A DNA stretch of 15,862 bases from the NCBI GenBank assembly GCA_026398715.1, contig JAPLSI010000235.1:1-15862 (forward strand). The letters run 5' to 3'. This document shows, piece after piece, positions 2,208-13,156 of this stretch. How positions within the stretch are numbered: position 1 is the stretch's first letter; each line of letters opens with the position of its first letter. The notes beneath the pieces were generated by a model, which ran no database searches, had not been told where the DNA came from, and saw nothing but the letters and a program-made list of their open reading frames with translations. The DNA comes from Gammaproteobacteria bacterium. Its GTDB lineage: Bacteria; Pseudomonadota; Gammaproteobacteria; Xanthomonadales; Xanthomonadaceae. A program made the position numbers and the translations under genes.

Positions 2208-2984
2208 ATGAACGTAACGATCAAGACCCCCGAAGACATCGAGAAGATGCGCGTGGCCGGCCGCCTGGCCGCCGAAGTGCTGCAAGTCGTGGCTCCGCAC
2301 GTCAAGGTGGGGGTAAGTACCGCCTATCTCGACCGCATCTGCCACGATCATATCGTCAACGTGCAGCAAGCCATTCCGGCCAATGTCGGCTACAAGGGCT
2401 TCCCGGCGACGGTCTGCACCTCGGTCAACAACGTGATCTGCCACGGCATCCCGACCGAAGCCAAGATCCTGAAGGAAGGCGACATCATCAATATCGACGT
2501 GACCGTCATCAAGGACGGCTTCCACGGCGATACCAGCCGCATGTACATCGTCGGCAAACCGTCGGTGAAGGCGCAGCGCCTCGTGGATGTCACGCGGGAG
2601 GCAATGTTCCAGGCCATCCGCCAGGTCCGCCCGGGCACGACCCTGGGCGACATCGGCCACGCGATCCAGCGCTACGTGGAAGCGGAGCGCTTCTCGGTGG
2701 TGCGCGAGTACTGCGGCCATGGCATCGGCCGCGTCTATCACGAAGACCCGCAGGTGCTGCATTACGGCACGCCAGGCACCGGCCTGCGCCTCGAGAAAGG
2801 CATGACCTTCACCATCGAGCCGATGGTGAACGAAGGCCAGCGCCACACCCGCCTGATGCCCGACGGCTGGACGGTCGTTACCAAGGACCGGTCCTTGTCG
2901 GCGCAGTGGGAACACACCGTGGCCGTTACCGATAACGGCGTCGAGATCCTGACCCGCGTACCCGGCGACGACAACGACCTGTGA
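2208..2984 (+). CDS. map: Methionine aminopeptidase, type I
   Basis: This enzyme removes the initiator methionine from nascent proteins in the cytoplasm. The 258-residue product starting MNVTIKTPEDIEKMRVAG keeps every catalytic residue at the same number as E. coli Map: His79 (in ICHG), metal ligands Asp97 and Asp108 (IDVTVIKDGFHGDTS), His171 (CGHGIG), Glu204 (FTIEPM) and Glu235 (QWEH). An in-frame ATG at 2100 was rejected because it lies upstream of the -10 element, within the rpsB leader on the other strand, and adds 36 residues without family similarity. It is the first gene of a plus-strand operon. Its TGA overlaps the GTG start of glnD by the sequence GTGA, implying translational coupling. 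Divergent from rpsB. Confidence 0.97.
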   Translation: MNVTIKTPEDIEKMRVAGRLAAEVLQVVAPHVKVGVSTAYLDRICHDHIVNVQQAIPANVGYKGFPATVCTSVNNVICHGIPTEAKILKEGDIINIDVTVIKDGFHGDTSRMYIVGKPSVKAQRLVDVTREAMFQAIRQVRPGTTLGDIGHAIQRYVEAERFSVVREYCGHGIGRVYHEDPQVLHYGTPGTGLRLEKGMTFTIEPMVNEGQRHTRLMPDGWTVVTKDRSLSAQWEHTVAVTDNGVEILTRVPGDDNDL

Positions 2985-5521
2985 CCCTGCCCGCGCCCGC
3001 GCCTACGCTCGCCTCGCGCCTTTCGCAGGCGAGTGACGACGCGGATTGGCGGGAGGCGGCGAAAGCCGCGCTGGGCCAGCATCGCAGCGACCTGCAGGCC
3101 GCCTTTGCCGCTGGCGAAGCGGTCGAGCGACTGATCGGCAAGCGTTGCACCCTGATCGACACCCTGGTTGCTGCAGCCTGGCAGCGCTGCATCGTCAACG
3201 TCGACGCGATGAGCCTGCTGGCCACGGGCGGGTACGGTCGCGGCGAGTTGTACCCGTTTTCCGACATCGACCTGCTGGTGCTGGCCGAGCCTCGCGTGCA
3301 GCGCAAGAACGAGCCGGCGATGGCGCGGTTCTTCGCGATGTTGTGGGATGCCGGCCTTGCCACCAGCCATGCCGTGCGATCGGTGGAAGAATGCGTGCAC
3401 GCAGCGCGCGACGACATCGCCACGCTGACGTCCCTGATGGAACTGCGCACGCTTGGCGGCAGCGATGCGCCGCGCGAGGCGTTGGTGAAAGCGCTGTCGC
3501 CGAAGAAGATGTGGCCGCCCGGGAAATATTTCGAAGCCAAGCGCGAGGAACAACGCGCGCGGCACGCCCGCTACAACGACACCGCCGACAACCTCGAACC
3601 CAACCTTAAGGAAGGGCCCGGCGGTTTGCGCGACCTGCATTCGGTCACCTGGATGGGGATGCGCCTGTACGGCGTGCCCGGCCTGCGCGCGCTGGTGCCG
3701 CTGGGCCTGCTGGGCGAAGTGGAGTGCGCGACGCTGGAACAGAAGTGGGCCGACCTGGCCCGATTGCGCTTCGGCCTGCACCTGGTGGCGGGACGACGCG
3801 AGGAACGCCTGCTGTTCGACCACCAGAAGGCGCTCGCCGCGCTGATGGGATTGAAGGACGAGGAAGGCAACCTGGCCGTCGAGCAGATGATGCAGGGTTT
3901 CTTCCGCGCGGCCGCCACGATGCTGCGCATCAACGACCGCCTGCTGCAGCGCTTCGAGGAACAACTGGCCGGCGTGGCCGCGCCGGTGCCTGTACAGCCG
4001 GGCTTCGAATTGCGCCATGGCTACCTGGCGATGACCGATGCGCCGCGACTGGGTCGCGGCATGACCGAGATACTGGAATTGTTCGCGGTGTGGACGCGCC
4101 TGGAAAGCGCACGCGGCCTGCATTCGGAAACCGCGCGGGCCCTTGCCGAATCCTTGCCAACCATCCACTCCTATGCGGAAGAGGGCGAGGCGGTGCGCGC
4201 GCGCTTCATCGAATTGCTGGCGCAACCCAACGCGGTCGGCATGCTGAAGCGAATGGCGCGGCTGGGCGTGCTCGGCCGCTACCTGCCCGAGTTCGGCAAG
4301 GTGTCGGGCCGCATGCAGTACGACCTGTTCCACGTCTACACAGTGGACCAGCACACGCTGACAGTGTTGCGCCTGCTGCAGGATTTCCTGCGCGGCGCGC
4401 CGGTGCCGGGTTTCTCGATGACGGCAGATGTCGTGCCGCGTTTGCGCAAGCCTTTCCTGCTGCTGGTCGCGGGCCTTTACCACGACATCGCCAAGGGCCG
4501 GCGCGGCGACCATTCGCAACTGGGCGCCGAGGACGTTCGCGAGTTCGCCGAGGCGCATGCTCTGCCCAGCGCGGATGTCGAATTGCTGGTGTGGCTGGTC
4601 CGCAACCACCTGGTGATGTCGACGACGGCGCAGCGGCAGGACATTTCCGACCCCGAAGTCGTGACGAAGTTTTCCCGGTTCGTCGCCGACCGCGAGCACC
4701 TCGATTACCTGTACCTGCTGACCTGCGCCGACATCGCCGGCACCAGCCCGAAATTGTGGAACGGCTGGAAGGACCGGCTGCTGGCCGACCTGCATACGGC
4801 CACGCGCTATGCGCTGCGTCGCGGCCTGGAACATCCACTCAATGCCGAAGACATCATGGCCGACACCGGCAACATGGCCCTGGCCAAGTTGCTCGATGCC
4901 GGCTTCGACGATTCGGCCATCGAAAAACTGTGGGCGAATTTCCCGGACGAGGCGTTCCTGCGCTATCGCCCGGAGCAACTGGTCTGGCAGACCGACGGCC
5001 TGCTGGCGCAGTCGCATCGCGAATCAGTGGTGCTGGCGCGCAGCCTGGATACTCCGGGCAGCTTCGAGGTGTTCGTGCGCACGCCCGATCGCGACGGCCT
5101 GTTCGCGGCCCTGGTGGCGACGCTCGATCGCCTGGGGCTGGGCGTGCTGGATGCCCGCATCATGAAATCCGCCGACGGTTTCGCGCTCGACAATTTCCAG
5201 GTGATTTCCGGCGCCCAGGCACCGGAACCTTCGCGCATCGTCGAGACGCTGCAGTCGGCCCTGCGCGATCCGGCGGCGGTCAAGCCGGCCCGGCGCGCCA
5301 CGCCCAGGCACCTGCGCCACTTCCGCGTGCCGGCGCGGGTGGACTTCGACACCCTGGACGCGCAGCGCACGCGGCTCAGCCTGGAGGATATATTCCTCAT
5401 CAGCGACCAGCATGACGCGTCGTTGCCCGAACCATTGATTGAAACTTTGCGCACGGCGTTGATCGCCTGCCTGGAAGGAGAACAGGGGAATGACGCAGCA
5501 AGATCCAGCCGCCAGGGCTGA
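2981..5521 (+). CDS. glnD: Bifunctional PII uridylyltransferase / uridylyl-removing enzyme with shortened second ACT domain
   Basis: GlnD senses glutamine and adds or removes UMP on PII (GlnB/GlnK), setting glutamine synthetase activity and Ntr transcription. Domains visible: nucleotidyltransferase motif [12 protein letters not shown] at residues 83-97 (catalytic Asp95 and Asp97); HD hydrolase domain with [12 protein letters not shown] (His501-Asp502) preceded by His451 and His458; first ACT domain from about 693 to 765. The second ACT domain is abnormal. The [10 protein letters not shown] lead-in and first strand RTRLSL (796-801) run directly into EDIFLISD (802 on), which in relatives is the last strand. 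The intervening ..TDRPGLL helix and middle strands, about 35 residues, are absent without a frame change. Total length is 846 against 890 in E. coli. Start is GTG, overlapping the map stop. Its 3' end overlaps dapD by 32 bases. Confidence 0.95.
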
Positions 5522-8850: not shown

Positions 8851-8858
8851 AATCAGGG
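8845..8858. repeat. Short inverted repeat across two convergent stop codons
   Basis: CCCTGA (8845-8850), two A, then TCAGGG (8853-8858). The repeat contains the TGA of the DUF1028 gene and, on the other strand, the TGA of the penicillin acylase gene, which are only 2 bases apart. There is no T-run, so termination activity is doubtful; it may simply reflect two opposed stop codons with similar context. Confidence 0.35.
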
Positions 8859-11243
8859 TGCGGCCTTCGGGCTGACCACGAGCGTGTGCTTGGCCGCGCC
8901 CGGCAGGAAGGGCGTGGCTTCGCCGTTCACCCAGGCGGCATGTCCCGCGCCCCAGAAGGGCGACAGGAAGTTTCCGCTCTGGCCGCCCGGCATGTGGATG
9001 ATGCCGTCCTCCTCGCGGCCCGGCGAAACCACCATTCGCTCCGACGCGCCAAACGTGGGCGTGGCGATGCGTGGCATGTTCAGGTCGCCGGCCAGGGCGT
9101 CGGGCGGCATGCACAACCAGCGCGAGGCAAGCGACGGCAGCGCCTTGGCCAAGGGATGGCAGACGGCGGCGGTGTTGTGTTCGGCCCATCGCCGATCCTT
9201 CAACGGCCCGCGCTTGCCGTGCTCTGCAGCCACGAATTTCGCCGCATCCAGCAACAAGGCGTCCCAGGTGGCGAAATCCTTCGGCAGCAGGTGCGCGGGG
9301 CGCTGCGAAACCAGTTGCCAGGCGACGCCTTCTATCTGCGGCAGGTCGGGCATGACGAAGTCATCGCCCAAGGCGACTATCGCCGGCGCCATCAAACCGT
9401 GCTTGATGCGATCAAGCACCGCCAGCCGCCACTCTCGCACCAGCAGGTAGCTGGTGGACTCGGGCGCGGCCCGGCCTTCCCATTTGCGCGTTGCCGCTTC
9501 GAACTCCACCCAGATCGGGTCGCGCGACGTCTTCGCCTGCTCGCGCAGCAATTGCCACCAGCGCTGCAGGAACACGGCGCGGTCATCGAGCTGGATCGCC
9601 ATCAGGTCGCGCTCGCTGAATTTGTTGCGGCTGAAGAGGTCGTCGCGAATCTGACGTGCGCGTGCGCCGTTGGCGTAGCCGGCATCGCCCAGCAAGTCGA
9701 GTTGCTCGTCATCGACCGTGCGCGCATTCGCGGTCCACAGTCGTCCGCTCGGCGGGTCGACGAAGGCGGGGTTGTCCTGCGGCGGTCGCCAGCCATTCCA
9801 ATCGCAGCCATCGAGAGGATCGATCGGCGCCTGCTTGTCGCAGTCGCCGGTGCGCCGCGGCATTTGCGCGGTCAATCGCCAGGCGATGCGCCCCGAGGAA
9901 TCTGCGATGACAATATTTTGCGCGGGCATGCCGACGTTGCCTGCGCGTTGCAGGGCGACGTCCAGCCCCGGCGCCGTGGCCAGGTCGGAAAGTCCGAGAT
10001 TGATCGCGCCGGGTTGGTGCGCGGCCCAGCGCAGGGCCAACGAGGTGTCGCCATCCTGTTCGCTGGTGATCGGCCACCAGATCGTTTCACGCACGGCAAA
10101 GGACTAGCTTGCGCCGCCTTTCACCGCGATCGACTCACTCACGACCGCTACCTGCTGCTCGCCGTCAGCGGTTCGATACCGCGAATGGGCGTCGTCGATC
10201 CAGTGCACCTGGTAGAAGTCGAGCCAGTCGCCGTAGGAATTGGTGAAGCTCCATGCCACGTGGCGATTGCTGCCGACGATGACCGTGGGAATGCCGGGCA
10301 AGGTGAATCCGCTGACGTCCACCTTGCCGCCGGGGGCGGCAGCGTCGCTGTAGATCATCCTCGCGCGGAACCAGATGTTGGGCGAGCGGATGGTCAGGTG
10401 CATGTCGCCGGCGACGATGGCGCGTCCATCGGCAGTGAGCTTGCCTGCCACGGCGAAGTTGTTGCTGCCGGGGGCAGCCTGTTCCGAGTCGTCGGTGGGA
10501 TTGTCCTTCGCCGGCGCGGGCAATTTGCGCAGGTCGATCTGGTCCATGCGCGGCAGGGCGACGTTGCCACGCGCGGCGCCGCGCAAGGGCGCGTCCCATT
10601 GGGTGCCGTCCGAATTGATGATTCGGTACAGAGCATCCGGGATGACCTGTTTGATCTTCCAGAGCGCGAGTTCGCGCGAATTGGATTCGTCCTGCAGGTC
10701 GAAGAACATCGCATAGCCGACCAGCACGCTGTCGGCCGGCTGCCAGTCGCGTGGCTGCGTGCGCAGCAGCAGATAGGGCCAGGGGCGGGCACGCAGCTGG
10801 TTCCTGCCTGCGTTCACGCCTTCGGCGTAGGCAACCAGCAGCGGCAGTTTGTCGCCGGCGACCGTGGACAGGTCGCGGCTGACGCGATGGCGAAGGCGAT
10901 GCACGCGGATCGACTTGTCCTTCTCCAATGCGACGTCGCCAAAAAGTTCAGACAACTCGCCCGCTGCGGAACGACGCAGCAGGTCCATCTCGAAGAAACG
11001 TTCCTGGCCGTGTACGTAGCCGAGTGCGCGGGCGGCATCTTTTTCGTTCGCTGCGTGAACCGTAACGGTACCCAATGCATCGCGCTCGACGCGCACGGGC
11101 GCCGACAGCCCAGGCAGCGACAGGTCGCCATCCAGGCGCGCCAGGCTGCCCCGGACGGCCCACCAGCCCGCTGCGGCGGCAATCGCCAGCAGGACCAGCA
11201 GCACAAGGACCAGGCGCAGCAGCAGGCGGGGCAATCGGGTCAT
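8853..11243 (-). pseudogene. Penicillin acylase family protein (Ntn hydrolase, S45), interrupted by an in-frame amber codon
   Basis: Read from the ATG at 11243 (GGAG 6 nt upstream) to the TGA at 8855, the frame is 796 codons, a normal length for penicillin/acyl-homoserine-lactone acylase relatives, with one internal TAG at 10106-10104 (codon 380). Upstream part: an N-terminal hydrophobic signal/anchor (about residues 7-27), the alpha-chain motif GYVHGQERFFEMDLLRR, and the autoprocessing site PGSNNF with nucleophile Ser260 (codon 10466-10464). Downstream part: VRETIWWPI and LALRWAAHQPGA follow at once, as in intact relatives, then a TANAR segment corresponding to the active-site Asn region. 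So a single sense codon seems to have become TAG about 120 codons into the beta chain. Intact members are periplasmic amidases acting on acylated substrates. It could be a real nonsense mutation, a sequence error or read-through. A GTG at 10094 could restart translation but would yield only a beta-chain fragment. Confidence 0.8.
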
Positions 11244-11288
11244 CGGCGGCTCCAGAGGCTTGGCGTCATGCTCGCATCGCGCCGGGGC

Positions 11289-11316
11289 TTGCGCCAGCCT
11301 TGGAATTGGCTATAGT
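11289..11316 (+). promoter_or_regulatory. Promoter of the asnB leader transcript
   Basis: TTGCGC (11289-11294) and TATAGT (11311-11316, 5 of 6 to consensus) with a 16-nt spacer. With the usual distance from the -10, transcription starts at about 11323, which is the A of the leader ATG. The promoter sits in the 79-bp gap between the divergent penicillin acylase gene and the leader peptide. Confidence 0.65.
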
Positions 11317-11322
11317 CGGGTC

Positions 11323-11391
11323 ATGAGCCGCCACAGCACCAATAACCTCAATCGCAATAATCCCAACGTCCCCTTGCGGGTCGACGATTAG
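11323..11391 (+). CDS. Asn-rich leader peptide of asnB (22 codons)
   Basis: A 22-codon ORF, ATG to TAG. Asn occupies residues 7, 8, 10, 12, 13 and 15 (cluster NNLNRNNPN), six of 22, and the peptide ends in Asp-Asp. Four of the six Asn codons are AAT, whereas asnB itself uses AAT once in seven Asn codons. The next gene is asparagine synthetase and an intrinsic terminator lies between, so the peptide has the hallmarks of an attenuation leader whose translation measures charged tRNA-Asn. No Shine-Dalgarno is seen; the predicted transcript begins at the ATG, so it may be translated as a leaderless mRNA. The peptide itself probably has no function after synthesis. It is too short for most gene finders. 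Homology to known leaders is not claimed. Confidence 0.75.
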   Translation: MSRHSTNNLNRNNPNVPLRVDD

Positions 11392-11431
11392 GCGCGCTCA
11401 GGCACAGCTCCCCGATCACCGACGACCCGCA
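11367..11431 (+). promoter_or_regulatory. asnB attenuator: protector and antiterminator pairings
   Basis: Segment 1 (CGTCCCC, 11367-11373) can pair with segment 2 (GGG 11378-11380 and GACG 11383-11386), giving a 7-bp hairpin with loop TTGC and a 2-nt bulge. Segment 2 as TGCGGGTCG (11375-11383) is exactly complementary over 9 nt to segment 3, CGACCCGCA (11423-11431), and two more pairs form beyond an A-A mismatch. Segment 3 is also the 5' arm of the terminator, so 2:3 and 3:4 exclude each other. Segment 2 lies in leader codons 18-21, after the Asn cluster. A ribosome stalled at the Asn codons covers segment 1 and leaves 2 free (antitermination). A ribosome at the TAG covers 2 (termination). 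Confidence 0.75.
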
Positions 11432-11449
11432 CGAGAGTGCGGGTTTTTT
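11425..11449 (+). terminator. Intrinsic terminator of the asnB attenuator
   Basis: ACCCGCAC, loop GAGA (a GNRA tetraloop at 11433-11436), GTGCGGGT, then a run of six T ending at 11449. It lies between the leader ORF and asnB, 33 bases before the asnB ATG, on the coding strand of asnB, so transcription must pass it to express asnB. The 3' arm shares the 7-mer TGCGGGT with the antiterminator segment at 11375-11381, which is why the two compete for the same partner. Confidence 0.92.
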
Positions 11450-11482
11450 ATTGCGCGCGATTTCCCAACCAGGACCTGACCC

Positions 11483-13156
11483 ATGTGTTCCATCCTCGGA
11501 CTATTCGACCTGACTCCCGGCGCCGACCTGACGCCGTTGCGCCCGCTGGCGCTTTCCCTGTCGTCGCGGCAGCGGCACCGCGGCCCCGACTGGTCGGGCG
11601 TGTACACCGAACCGCGCTGCCTGCTGGTGCACGAGCGCCTGGCCATCGTCGACCCGGCAGGCGGTGCGCAGCCGCTGTTGTCGGGCGACGGCCGATTGGC
11701 GCTGGCGGTGAATGGCGAGATCTACAACCATCGCGAGCTCGAGCGCGGCCTGAAGCAGCCGTACGAATTCCAGACCGGCTCGGACTGCGAAGTCATCAAC
11801 GCCCTGTATCTCGAGCATGGTCCGGCTGGCGTGGCGCTTTTGAACGGCATCTACGCCTTCGCCTTGTGGGACGCGCAGCAGGGCCGATACCTCATCGCCC
11901 GCGATCCGCTGGGTGTGTGCCCGCTGTACTGGGGCCACGACGGGGACGGCAGGCTGTGGGTTGCTTCGGAGATGAAGGCATTGGCGCGGCACTGCCACGA
12001 CGTGGCGGTATTTCCACCGGGACATGTCTATGACAGCAGCACCGGCGAACTCACGTTTTTCCACGAGCGCGCGTGGCGCGACTACGACGCCGTGCAGGGA
12101 AAGACCGTCACGCCGCAAGCGCTGCGCGAAGGCTTCGAACAAGCCGTGCACCGGCAGCTGATGACGGACGTGCCCTACGGTGTGTTGCTGTCCGGCGGGT
12201 TGGATTCGTCGCTGGTGGCGGCTTGCGCCGCGCGATTCGCCCGGCAGCGCGTGGAAGACGACGACCGCGCCGAAGCCTGGTGGCCGCGACTGCACAGTTT
12301 TGCGATCGGCCTGCAGGGATCACCGGACCTGGCCGCGGCCGAAGTTGCCGCCAAGGCCCTGGGCACGGTGCACCACGGCTTTACCTATCGCTTCGAGGAA
12401 GGCCTGGACGCCTTGCCCGACGTGGTCCGCCATGTCGAAACCTATGACGTCACCACCATCCGCGCGTCCACGCCGATGTACCTGCTGGCGCGCCGCATCA
12501 AGGCGATGGGCGTGAAGATGGTGCTGTCGGGCGAAGGCGCCGACGAGATTTTCGGCGGCTACCTGTACTTCCACAAGGCGCCGAACGCGCGCGCCTTCCA
12601 CGAGGAATGCGTGCGCAAGATTGGCGCGCTGCACCAGTTCGATTGCGCGCGCGCCAACAAGGCGATGATGGCCTGGGGCGTGGAGGCACGCGTGCCCTTC
12701 CTGGACCTGGAATTCCTGGACCTGGCGATGGGCATGGATGCGCAGGCCAAGATGGCCGGGCCGGGCCGCATCGAGAAAGCGATCCTGCGCGAAGCCTTCG
12801 AAGGGGTGCTGCCGCCGGAAATCCTGTGGCGGCAGAAGGAACAGTTCAGCGACGGCGTCGGCTACGGCTGGATCGACGGCCTGAAGGCGCACGCGGAGCA
12901 ATACGTGAGCGACGCGATGATGGCGCAGGCGCCGCTGCGCTTCCCGATCAACACGCCGCAGACGAAAGAGGCCTACTGGTACCGCGACATCTTCGAGCGC
13001 GAATTCCCCGGTGATGCCTGCGCGCTGACGGTGCCGGGCGGCAAGTCCATCGCCTGCTCCAGCCCGGCCGCCATTGCCTGGGACCCGGCGTTTGCGGCGG
13101 CCGCGGATCCATCAGGACGCGCGATCGCCGGCGTGCACGTCGCCGCCTTGCCCTGA
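11483..13156 (+). CDS. asnB: Asparagine synthetase B, glutamine-hydrolysing
   Basis: AsnB makes asparagine from aspartate, ATP and the amide of glutamine. The 557-residue product is close to E. coli AsnB (554). The N-terminal class II glutaminase domain starts MCSILGLFD with Cys2 as the nucleophile after Met removal, RHRGPD at 31-36, Arg52, NGEIYNH (Asn77, Glu79) and GSD (Asp101). The C-terminal synthetase domain carries the ATP pyrophosphatase loop SGGLDSS at 237-243 and SGEGADEIFGGY from 349. AGGA lies 8 nt before the ATG. The enzyme contains only seven Asn residues. It is preceded by the Asn-codon leader and terminator, so control by transcription attenuation is inferred. It converges on parC with a 3-base gap and no evident terminator. 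Confidence 0.97.
   Translation: MCSILGLFDLTPGADLTPLRPLALSLSSRQRHRGPDWSGVYTEPRCLLVHERLAIVDPAGGAQPLLSGDGRLALAVNGEIYNHRELERGLKQPYEFQTGSDCEVINALYLEHGPAGVALLNGIYAFALWDAQQGRYLIARDPLGVCPLYWGHDGDGRLWVASEMKALARHCHDVAVFPPGHVYDSSTGELTFFHERAWRDYDAVQGKTVTPQALREGFEQAVHRQLMTDVPYGVLLSGGLDSSLVAACAARFARQRVEDDDRAEAWWPRLHSFAIGLQGSPDLAAAEVAAKALGTVHHGFTYRFEEGLDALPDVVRHVETYDVTTIRASTPMYLLARRIKAMGVKMVLSGEGADEIFGGYLYFHKAPNARAFHEECVRKIGALHQFDCARANKAMMAWGVEARVPFLDLEFLDLAMGMDAQAKMAGPGRIEKAILREAFEGVLPPEILWRQKEQFSDGVGYGWIDGLKAHAEQYVSDAMMAQAPLRFPINTPQTKEAYWYRDIFEREFPGDACALTVPGGKSIACSSPAAIAWDPAFAAAADPSGRAIAGVHVAALP

Follow-up and report, generated by a model that had tools for sequence, protein, structure and literature searches.

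A candidate ribosome-mediated attenuator upstream of asnB, predicted to sense asparagine from a leaderless leader ORF

INTRODUCTION

The trp and his attenuators are arranged as RNA segments 1 to 4. Comparative analysis has added leader-peptide candidates at trp, cys and leu/ilv genes in Actinobacteria, as described in excerpts of one study (PMC1262725), and at hisS/hisZ in bacilli, according to excerpts of another (PMC2965389). In the excerpted main texts, "asn" is absent from the former, and "asparagine" and "asnB" are absent from the latter. A Xanthomonas small-RNA paper mentions AsnB2, in its excerpted text, solely as a gene tested by qRT-PCR (PMC3771888). No earlier description of an Asn or asnB peptide attenuator was found among the full-text literature matches listed; the surveys of Vitreschak 2004 and Lopatovskaya 2010 lie outside that scope, and an earlier computational prediction at asnB in those two is possible.

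Here we analyze the region upstream of asnB in a DNA stretch of 15,862 nucleotides (the window) and its counterparts in other genomes. Judged from sequence, asnB is very probably controlled by a ribosome-mediated transcription attenuator in this region that responds to how much charged tRNA-Asn is available, with the stalling, the switch and the response to Asn all predicted. We file its working logic with that of the trp and his attenuators; what would be new is its Asn specificity.

RESULTS

Anatomy of the asnB leader

Between 11289 and 11482, the window carries in order a promoter-like pair, a 22-codon Asn-rich ORF, a spacer and an intrinsic terminator, and asnB comes next (Table 1). Rereading of the sequence reproduced, to the base, the anatomy that a preliminary description of this DNA had given, with a promoter, the ORF, the terminator and then asnB, and the coordinates that it had listed. 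Also borne out were its reports of six Asn codons in the ORF, of an exact 9-nt complement between 11375-11383 and 11423-11431, of the 7-mer TGCGGGT common to segments 2 and 4, and of a terminator with a GAGA loop and T6, to which the terminator scan adds a ninth pair, G-T. The ORF runs from the ATG at 11323 to the TAG at 11389-11391, and its Asn codons start at 11341, 11344, 11350, 11356, 11359 and 11365. When the 400 nt before the window asnB were shuffled 100 times, no shuffle reached six Asn codons in 15. The terminator reads ACCCGCAC-GAGA-GTGCGGGT, with T6 at 11444-11449. The asnB product matches asparagine synthase B at 831.5 bits (cut-off, 499). Its nearest relative is the AsnB of genome G127 (90% identical), and the nearest named one is that of Arenimonas malthae (83%).

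Table 1. Features of the asnB leader region in the window
Feature	Position	Strand	Basis
-35 element TTGCGC	11289..11294	+	Direct reading; comparative TTGC spacing test
-10 element TATAGT, 16 nt after TTGCGC	11311..11316	+	Direct reading; comparative
Leader ORF, 22 codons, 6 Asn, MSRHSTNNLNRNNPNVPLRVDD	11323..11391	+	Direct reading, frame test, codon counts, conservation
Asn codons 12-13, likely site of predicted stalling	11356..11361	+	Direct reading
Segment 1, 5' part of predicted 1:2 protector hairpin (11358-11390)	11358..11374	+	RNAfold
Segment 2, TGCGGGTCG, antiterminator partner of segment 3	11375..11383	+	Exact 9-nt complement; counterpart helix with both-side changes
Segment 3, 5' arm common to terminator and antiterminator, CGACCCGCA	11423..11431	+	Direct reading; terminator scan; covariation of both counterpart helices
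Intrinsic terminator (3:4 hairpin and T6)	11424..11449	+	Terminator scan, RNAfold; counterpart helix with both-side changes
asnB, glutamine-hydrolysing asparagine synthase B	11483..13156	+	NCBIfam NF006949 and TIGR01536 above cut-off

Elsewhere in the window, the minus strand carries an acylase-like gene (8853-11243) that diverges from asnB; the match of its first part to PvdQ is weak and falls far short of the cut-off. An in-frame stop at about 10104-10106 interrupts this gene and marks either a pseudogene or a sequencing error. About 6 kb upstream of asnB lies glnD (PII uridylyltransferase, TIGR01693 above cut-off; 2981-5521), with dapD and dapE between the two.

The leader is conserved with one type of AsnB

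Regions upstream of asnB were scored by a fixed criterion: at least three Asn codons in 15, no more than 10 of 100 shuffles as high, and a terminator hairpin with a T run after the stop. In the order of genome G001, 127 of 200 genomes had a close AsnB and 110 upstream regions were read; the other 17 all had an AsnB at most 66% identical. The criterion was passed by 63 of the 64 regions with an AsnB at least 74% identical (the Lysobacteraceae/Rhodanobacteraceae type) and by none of the 46 read regions of the same order with an AsnB at most 70% identical. The one miss, L132, failed by a single shuffle (11); its ORF and terminator are both there, and it is identical in sequence to L037, a region that passed. 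The preliminary description had proposed a search of Xanthomonadales for a conserved Asn-rich ORF upstream of asnB, and such an ORF was found. Loss of the Asn codons or of the pairing in relatives, which it had named as evidence against its reading, is not the case.

One region of the order, L170 (genome G088; AsnB 64% identical), is borderline and was left uncounted. It has four Asn codons (NTINTTNN) and a strong terminator, and 13, 8 and 13 of 100 shuffles were as high in three runs, of which 8 would pass. It could be an older form of the switch.

In a set of 80 named loci, the first 43 include 38 that pass. An ORF and a hairpin are present in L014 and L016, but without a good T run. The loci titled Deltaproteobacteria, Rhodococcus and Holophagales (L002, L015 and L030) have no leader yet sit inside the Lysobacterales group of the AsnB tree, which points either to transfer of asnB without the switch or to contamination. 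Among loci 44 to 80, L045 and L049 alone pass; L049 sits inside a coding frame, was judged false and was set aside. Seven loci on the minus strand (L091, L092, L100, L103, L108, L114 and L117) all carry the leader, and the counts over 95 or 94 loci and the alignments A1 and A2 leave them out. A set of 111 regions contained 104 distinct strings.

In a phylum search, none of the 22 new regions read (L244-L263, L265 and L266) passed. A class search returned 5 of 321 genomes, with at most four candidates scored in each; the other Gammaproteobacteria covered are L044-L080 and L272. A covariance model built on A1 was run against 200 genomes for paralogous leaders. Among the matches listed, no Asn leader away from asnB was seen by eye in the 20 hits read; most of these non-asnB hits look like the ends of genes, with terminators rich in GC, and four have a different conserved element in common.

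That element is a conserved stretch, GTGCGTCCCCCTACTGCCAACGCCAACACGCAAGCCCC, followed by a terminator, at L232 297-412 and L241 232-349 (plus strand) and at L239 913-1027 and L240 954-1068 (minus strand). In L239 and L240 its ends are complementary (CCGGGTGTC...GACACCCGG), and the gene downstream is presumably hemD. Rfam returned nothing for it at gathering (two weak matches in L241 are far below cut-off), no tRNA or tmRNA was found in it, and it is possibly an undescribed RNA. Separately, palindromic GGCCATCCATGGCC-like elements, repeated in some loci, were seen by eye between the attenuator terminator and asnB in L003, L005, L009, L013 and L017 (Rhodanobacter and some Lysobacter).

The leader transcript is predicted to begin at the ATG of the ORF

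A strict sigma-70 scan of 10900-11800 found no promoter, and the promoter call therefore rests on comparative evidence. TTGC at -35 spacing, a -10-like hexamer and a start codon 6 to 7 nt farther on occur together in 79 of 106 leader regions, versus 8 of 2120 shuffled ones; a promoter-anchored start is absent in 27 of the 106, including the five from a distant order described below. In the window, the -10 box ends 6 nt before the ATG (6 to 7 nt in relatives), so the predicted transcription start is the A of the ATG itself. The leader transcript is thus probably leaderless, a feature that the preliminary description had missed.

The leader ORF is constrained in frame and in its Asn codons

Start codons for a frame test were picked by promoter spacing, blind to frame. 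Every one of the 79 promoter-anchored starts shared the frame of the Asn block. The stretch that runs from this block through to the stop holds 2240 in-frame codons across the 94 loci, with 594 AAY (291 AAT and 303 AAC), 4 AAR and 55 AGN among them. The two other frames hold 0 and 5 AAY, a contrast that is partly built in, with an inflated AAY count, by choice of the frame and block for Asn; the promoter-anchored test is free of this. The distance from the stop to the terminator has no fixed phase (45, 23 and 26 of the 94 loci).

The ORF is conserved and probably translated, which would also be expected if it encoded a small peptide with a function of its own and the terminator were constitutive. 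The S. meliloti leader peptide peTrpL has a reported function in trans, as described in excerpts of the source (PMC7298713). In the 79 promoter-anchored cases, however, the asnB leader ORF is 20 to 45 codons long, with 18 different lengths, and its N-terminal part differs widely between groups. The pairing of segment 2 with the terminator would also lack an explanation. We consider a peptide with its own function highly improbable.

Slightly less probable still is that the AAY repeats are an RNA motif within an incidental ORF, with a protein or small RNA acting at the terminator. A-R-N triplet repeats are a motif bound by Hfq, and AAYAAY runs fit such a repeat. That motif would also accept AAR and AGN, which are scarce among the in-frame codons given above, though in a block picked for Asn. 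The in-frame position of every promoter-anchored start speaks against it as well, as does the placement of the last Asn pair relative to segment 2 (see below). Together, the promoter frame test and the codon counts argue for selection on the amino acid and not on an A-rich RNA motif.

Both the terminator and antiterminator helices covary

Alignment A1 comprises 44 of the 94 loci and A2 comprises 28 (the Xanthomonas/Stenotrophomonas group); the remaining 22 loci, L045 and for the most part near-copies, were deliberately excluded. The preliminary description had called for compensatory changes in the 2:3 and 3:4 stems, and in A1 both helices have them. The terminator helix is 97.0% paired, with a covariation score of 0.285 versus 0.132 when shuffled, and 5 of its 10 pairs change on both sides in some sequence. 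The antiterminator, with 14 pairs, is 81.1% paired (91.5% in its core helix and 66.8% in a second helix, to the stop codon); it scores 0.178 versus 0.122 when shuffled, and 8 of the 14 pairs have both-side changes. Sliding the antiterminator partner drops pairing to 28 to 50%, a comparison in which the tested structures, written from single rows (L006 and L029), are favored over slid versions. A slide of +2 has more both-side cells than the true register (29 versus 23), and the further pair types in 2:3 were equalled by 80 of 500 shuffles. L020 and L105 have U in place of C in segment 3 together with A in place of G in segment 2; as a consequence, 2:3 stays Watson-Crick and 3:4 turns to G-U.

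In A2, by contrast, 2:3 reaches up to 11 bp but hardly varies, with both-side changes in 2 of 11 pairs, and covariation is weak there. For a hairpin around the last Asn pair in A2, 117 of 500 shuffles had as many paired cells, and covariation gave it no clear support. Across the 94 loci, the 2:3 score was 22.3 with a locus's own arm, 18.6 with arms swapped between loci and 13.5 with shuffled ORF ends. In 74 of the 94, no more than 5 of 100 shuffles reached the own score; on average, 38% of terminator-arm swaps were at least as good as the own arm.

Least probable of all is direct sensing of tRNA-Asn or asparagine by a T-box or riboswitch-like element. Such elements control asparagine genes in other phyla, but Rfam had no match in the window at gathering, in 11200-11500 at E of at most 1, or at gathering in the relatives' leaders L001, L011, L017, L031 and L198, and by eye A1 and A2 have no further conserved block between the ORF and the terminator.

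Folding and spacing fit a ribosome-controlled switch

RNAfold of 11323-11450, as the preliminary description had suggested, gave -39.0 kcal/mol (z, -2.21), with 3 of 200 shuffles as good. The 1:2 pairing that it had placed within 11367-11386 exists (-6.6 kcal/mol alone), and 11356-11391 folds at -7.8 kcal/mol (RNAfold). The fold of 11323-11431 (-23.7 kcal/mol) contains 2:3 and not 1:2. Of the earlier claim that an untranslated leader terminates, the part that stands is that 1:2 can form; 2:3 wins once segment 3 is present, and the untranslated state may therefore terminate only if 1:2 forms first and persists. This is the least supported step of the model. When leaders were cut before arm 4 and folded free of ribosomes, 2:3 formed in six of seven loci, L202 being the exception, and the whole L031 leader, folded unrestrained, keeps 2:3 and not the terminator.

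Ribosome positions were modeled in 110 regions, which include the same-sequence pairs L045/L198 and L037/L132 and the set-aside L214 and L217. The search for segment 2 was confined to the final 45 nt of the ORF and the vicinity of the stop, which partly predetermines how near to the stop segment 2 lies. Segment 2 begins a median 11 nt past the last Asn-Asn pair (range, -1 to 51); in the window, 13 nt separate the end of Asn codons 12-13 from segment 2. A ribosome covers about 12 nt ahead of its codon (PMC4833913). The spacing fits the earlier proposal that a stalled ribosome exposes segment 2, the median being close to this footprint. With a ribosome stalled on the last Asn pair, at least 60% of segment 2 is paired downstream in 95 of 110 folds; in the other 15 regions, the exposed RNA lacks that share of segment 2 in the antiterminator. 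When leaders were folded only as far as segment 2, half or more of that segment was paired upstream in 101 of 110, a count with no shuffle control, and this pairing is weak in the window. All 110 folds with a ribosome on the stop codon form the terminator, a result partly built in by the choice of parts.

Leader genomes encode AsnRS

An AsnRS match was present in all 64 leader genomes of the order set and in the five distant leader genomes, for a total of 69 of 69 checked. Asn-tRNA in these genomes can therefore depend on and report free asparagine, as the mechanism needs. AsnRS was found in 178 of the 200 order-set genomes, and the 22 without it include no leader genome (20 listed and two inferred). 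It is also present in most genomes that have no leader and does not discriminate between the two; its presence is a prerequisite of the mechanism, not a correlation.

A similar leader in a distant order

The order of G206, reached via L045 (titled Rubrivirga), has a close AsnB in 24 of 114 genomes; the partial matches L221-L223 were left out. In five related genomes (L198 and L201-L204), an ORF with three to five Asn codons in 15 is followed by a strong terminator before asnB. L198 has the same sequence as L045, and the AsnB proteins of the five are 78 to 100% identical to that of L045. The longest 2:3 run, G-U included, is 10 bp in L204, 7 in L202, 6 in L201 and 5 in L198 and L203. Of the 16 other regions read in this order (L205-L220), 14 fail the criterion. 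The criterion is formally passed by L214 and L217, but both appear to lie antisense to a divergent coding gene and were set aside.

In the AsnB tree, a quick, midpoint-rooted one whose positive label includes L214 and L217 and, by choice, L014 and L016, the five distant genomes form a group of their own (support, 98) apart from the Lysobacterales group. These sequence relationships make a separate origin of the distant-order leader likely.

DISCUSSION

Several of the features by which an attenuator is recognized are found at this locus. A short leader ORF repeatedly encodes the amino acid that AsnB makes (6 Asn of 22 codons); these codons are conserved, in frame and AAY specific, and their translation is predicted. 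An intrinsic terminator lies between the ORF and the gene (ORF and terminator in 63 of 64 close-type regions; the 64th has the terminator too). A mutually exclusive antiterminator uses the 5' arm of the terminator (9-nt complement; both-side changes in 8 of 14 pairs in A1 and 2 of 11 in A2). The spacing of the regulatory codons, segment 2 and the stop is suitable (median, 11 nt; 95 of 110 stalled folds). The conserved Asn ORF, the covariation and the spacing support the logic of the trp and his attenuators with Asn as the sensed residue, as the preliminary description had proposed, with two refinements: the predicted leaderless start and the 1:2 state of an untranslated leader, which is the least supported step. 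We hold the anatomy with high confidence and the mechanism, which is read from sequence, with good confidence.

In the proposed mechanism, transcription would begin at the ATG of the leader ORF. When Asn-tRNA is scarce, the leading ribosome would stall on the Asn codons and cover segment 1; 2:3 would then pair, no terminator would form and asnB would be transcribed. When Asn-tRNA is plentiful, the ribosome would reach the stop codon and cover segment 2, 3:4 would pair and transcription would end before asnB. Cells would probably use this switch to turn on asnB when asparagine for protein synthesis runs short.

If this is true, leader-peptide attenuation, known for a small number of amino acids, extends to asparagine, and asnB gains a concrete regulator in a large group of bacteria associated with soil and plants; among the genomes examined, almost all of those with such an asnB carry the leader. 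With its predicted leaderless start, its covariation and its wealth of natural variants, the leader would offer a ready test bed both for the coupling of leaderless translation to RNA polymerase in attenuation and for whether such switches arise more than once. More tentative is the wider proposition, which we rate as slightly less likely than not, that Asn is a new sensed residue, that the leaderless switch is present in most Lysobacteraceae and Rhodanobacteraceae, and that it had a separate origin in the distant order that includes a genome titled Rubrivirga, so that asnB attenuation would have evolved at least twice.

The candidates in Actinobacteria and bacilli resemble the asnB leader in that, in the excerpted texts, codons for the cognate amino acid form runs in their leader ORFs, although the amino acids are others (PMC1262725, PMC2965389). 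In the trp and his attenuators of enterobacteria, as excerpts of their description put it, the leader ORF likewise carries regulatory codons for the amino acid produced by the controlled genes, and the ribosome races RNA polymerase (PMC1183508). In contrast with them, the asnB leader would sense Asn and control a single amidotransferase gene, its ORF is predicted to be leaderless, and its 1:2 hairpin is weak in this window. In the trpL-trpE(G) attenuator of Sinorhizobium meliloti, according to excerpts of two papers, the ATG of the leader ORF forms the very 5' end of the transcript, as predicted for asnB (PMC7298713, PMC10117765). That system differs, in the same excerpts, in its Trp codons and its bacterial class, and it is leaderless by experiment, whereas the asnB leader is so by prediction.
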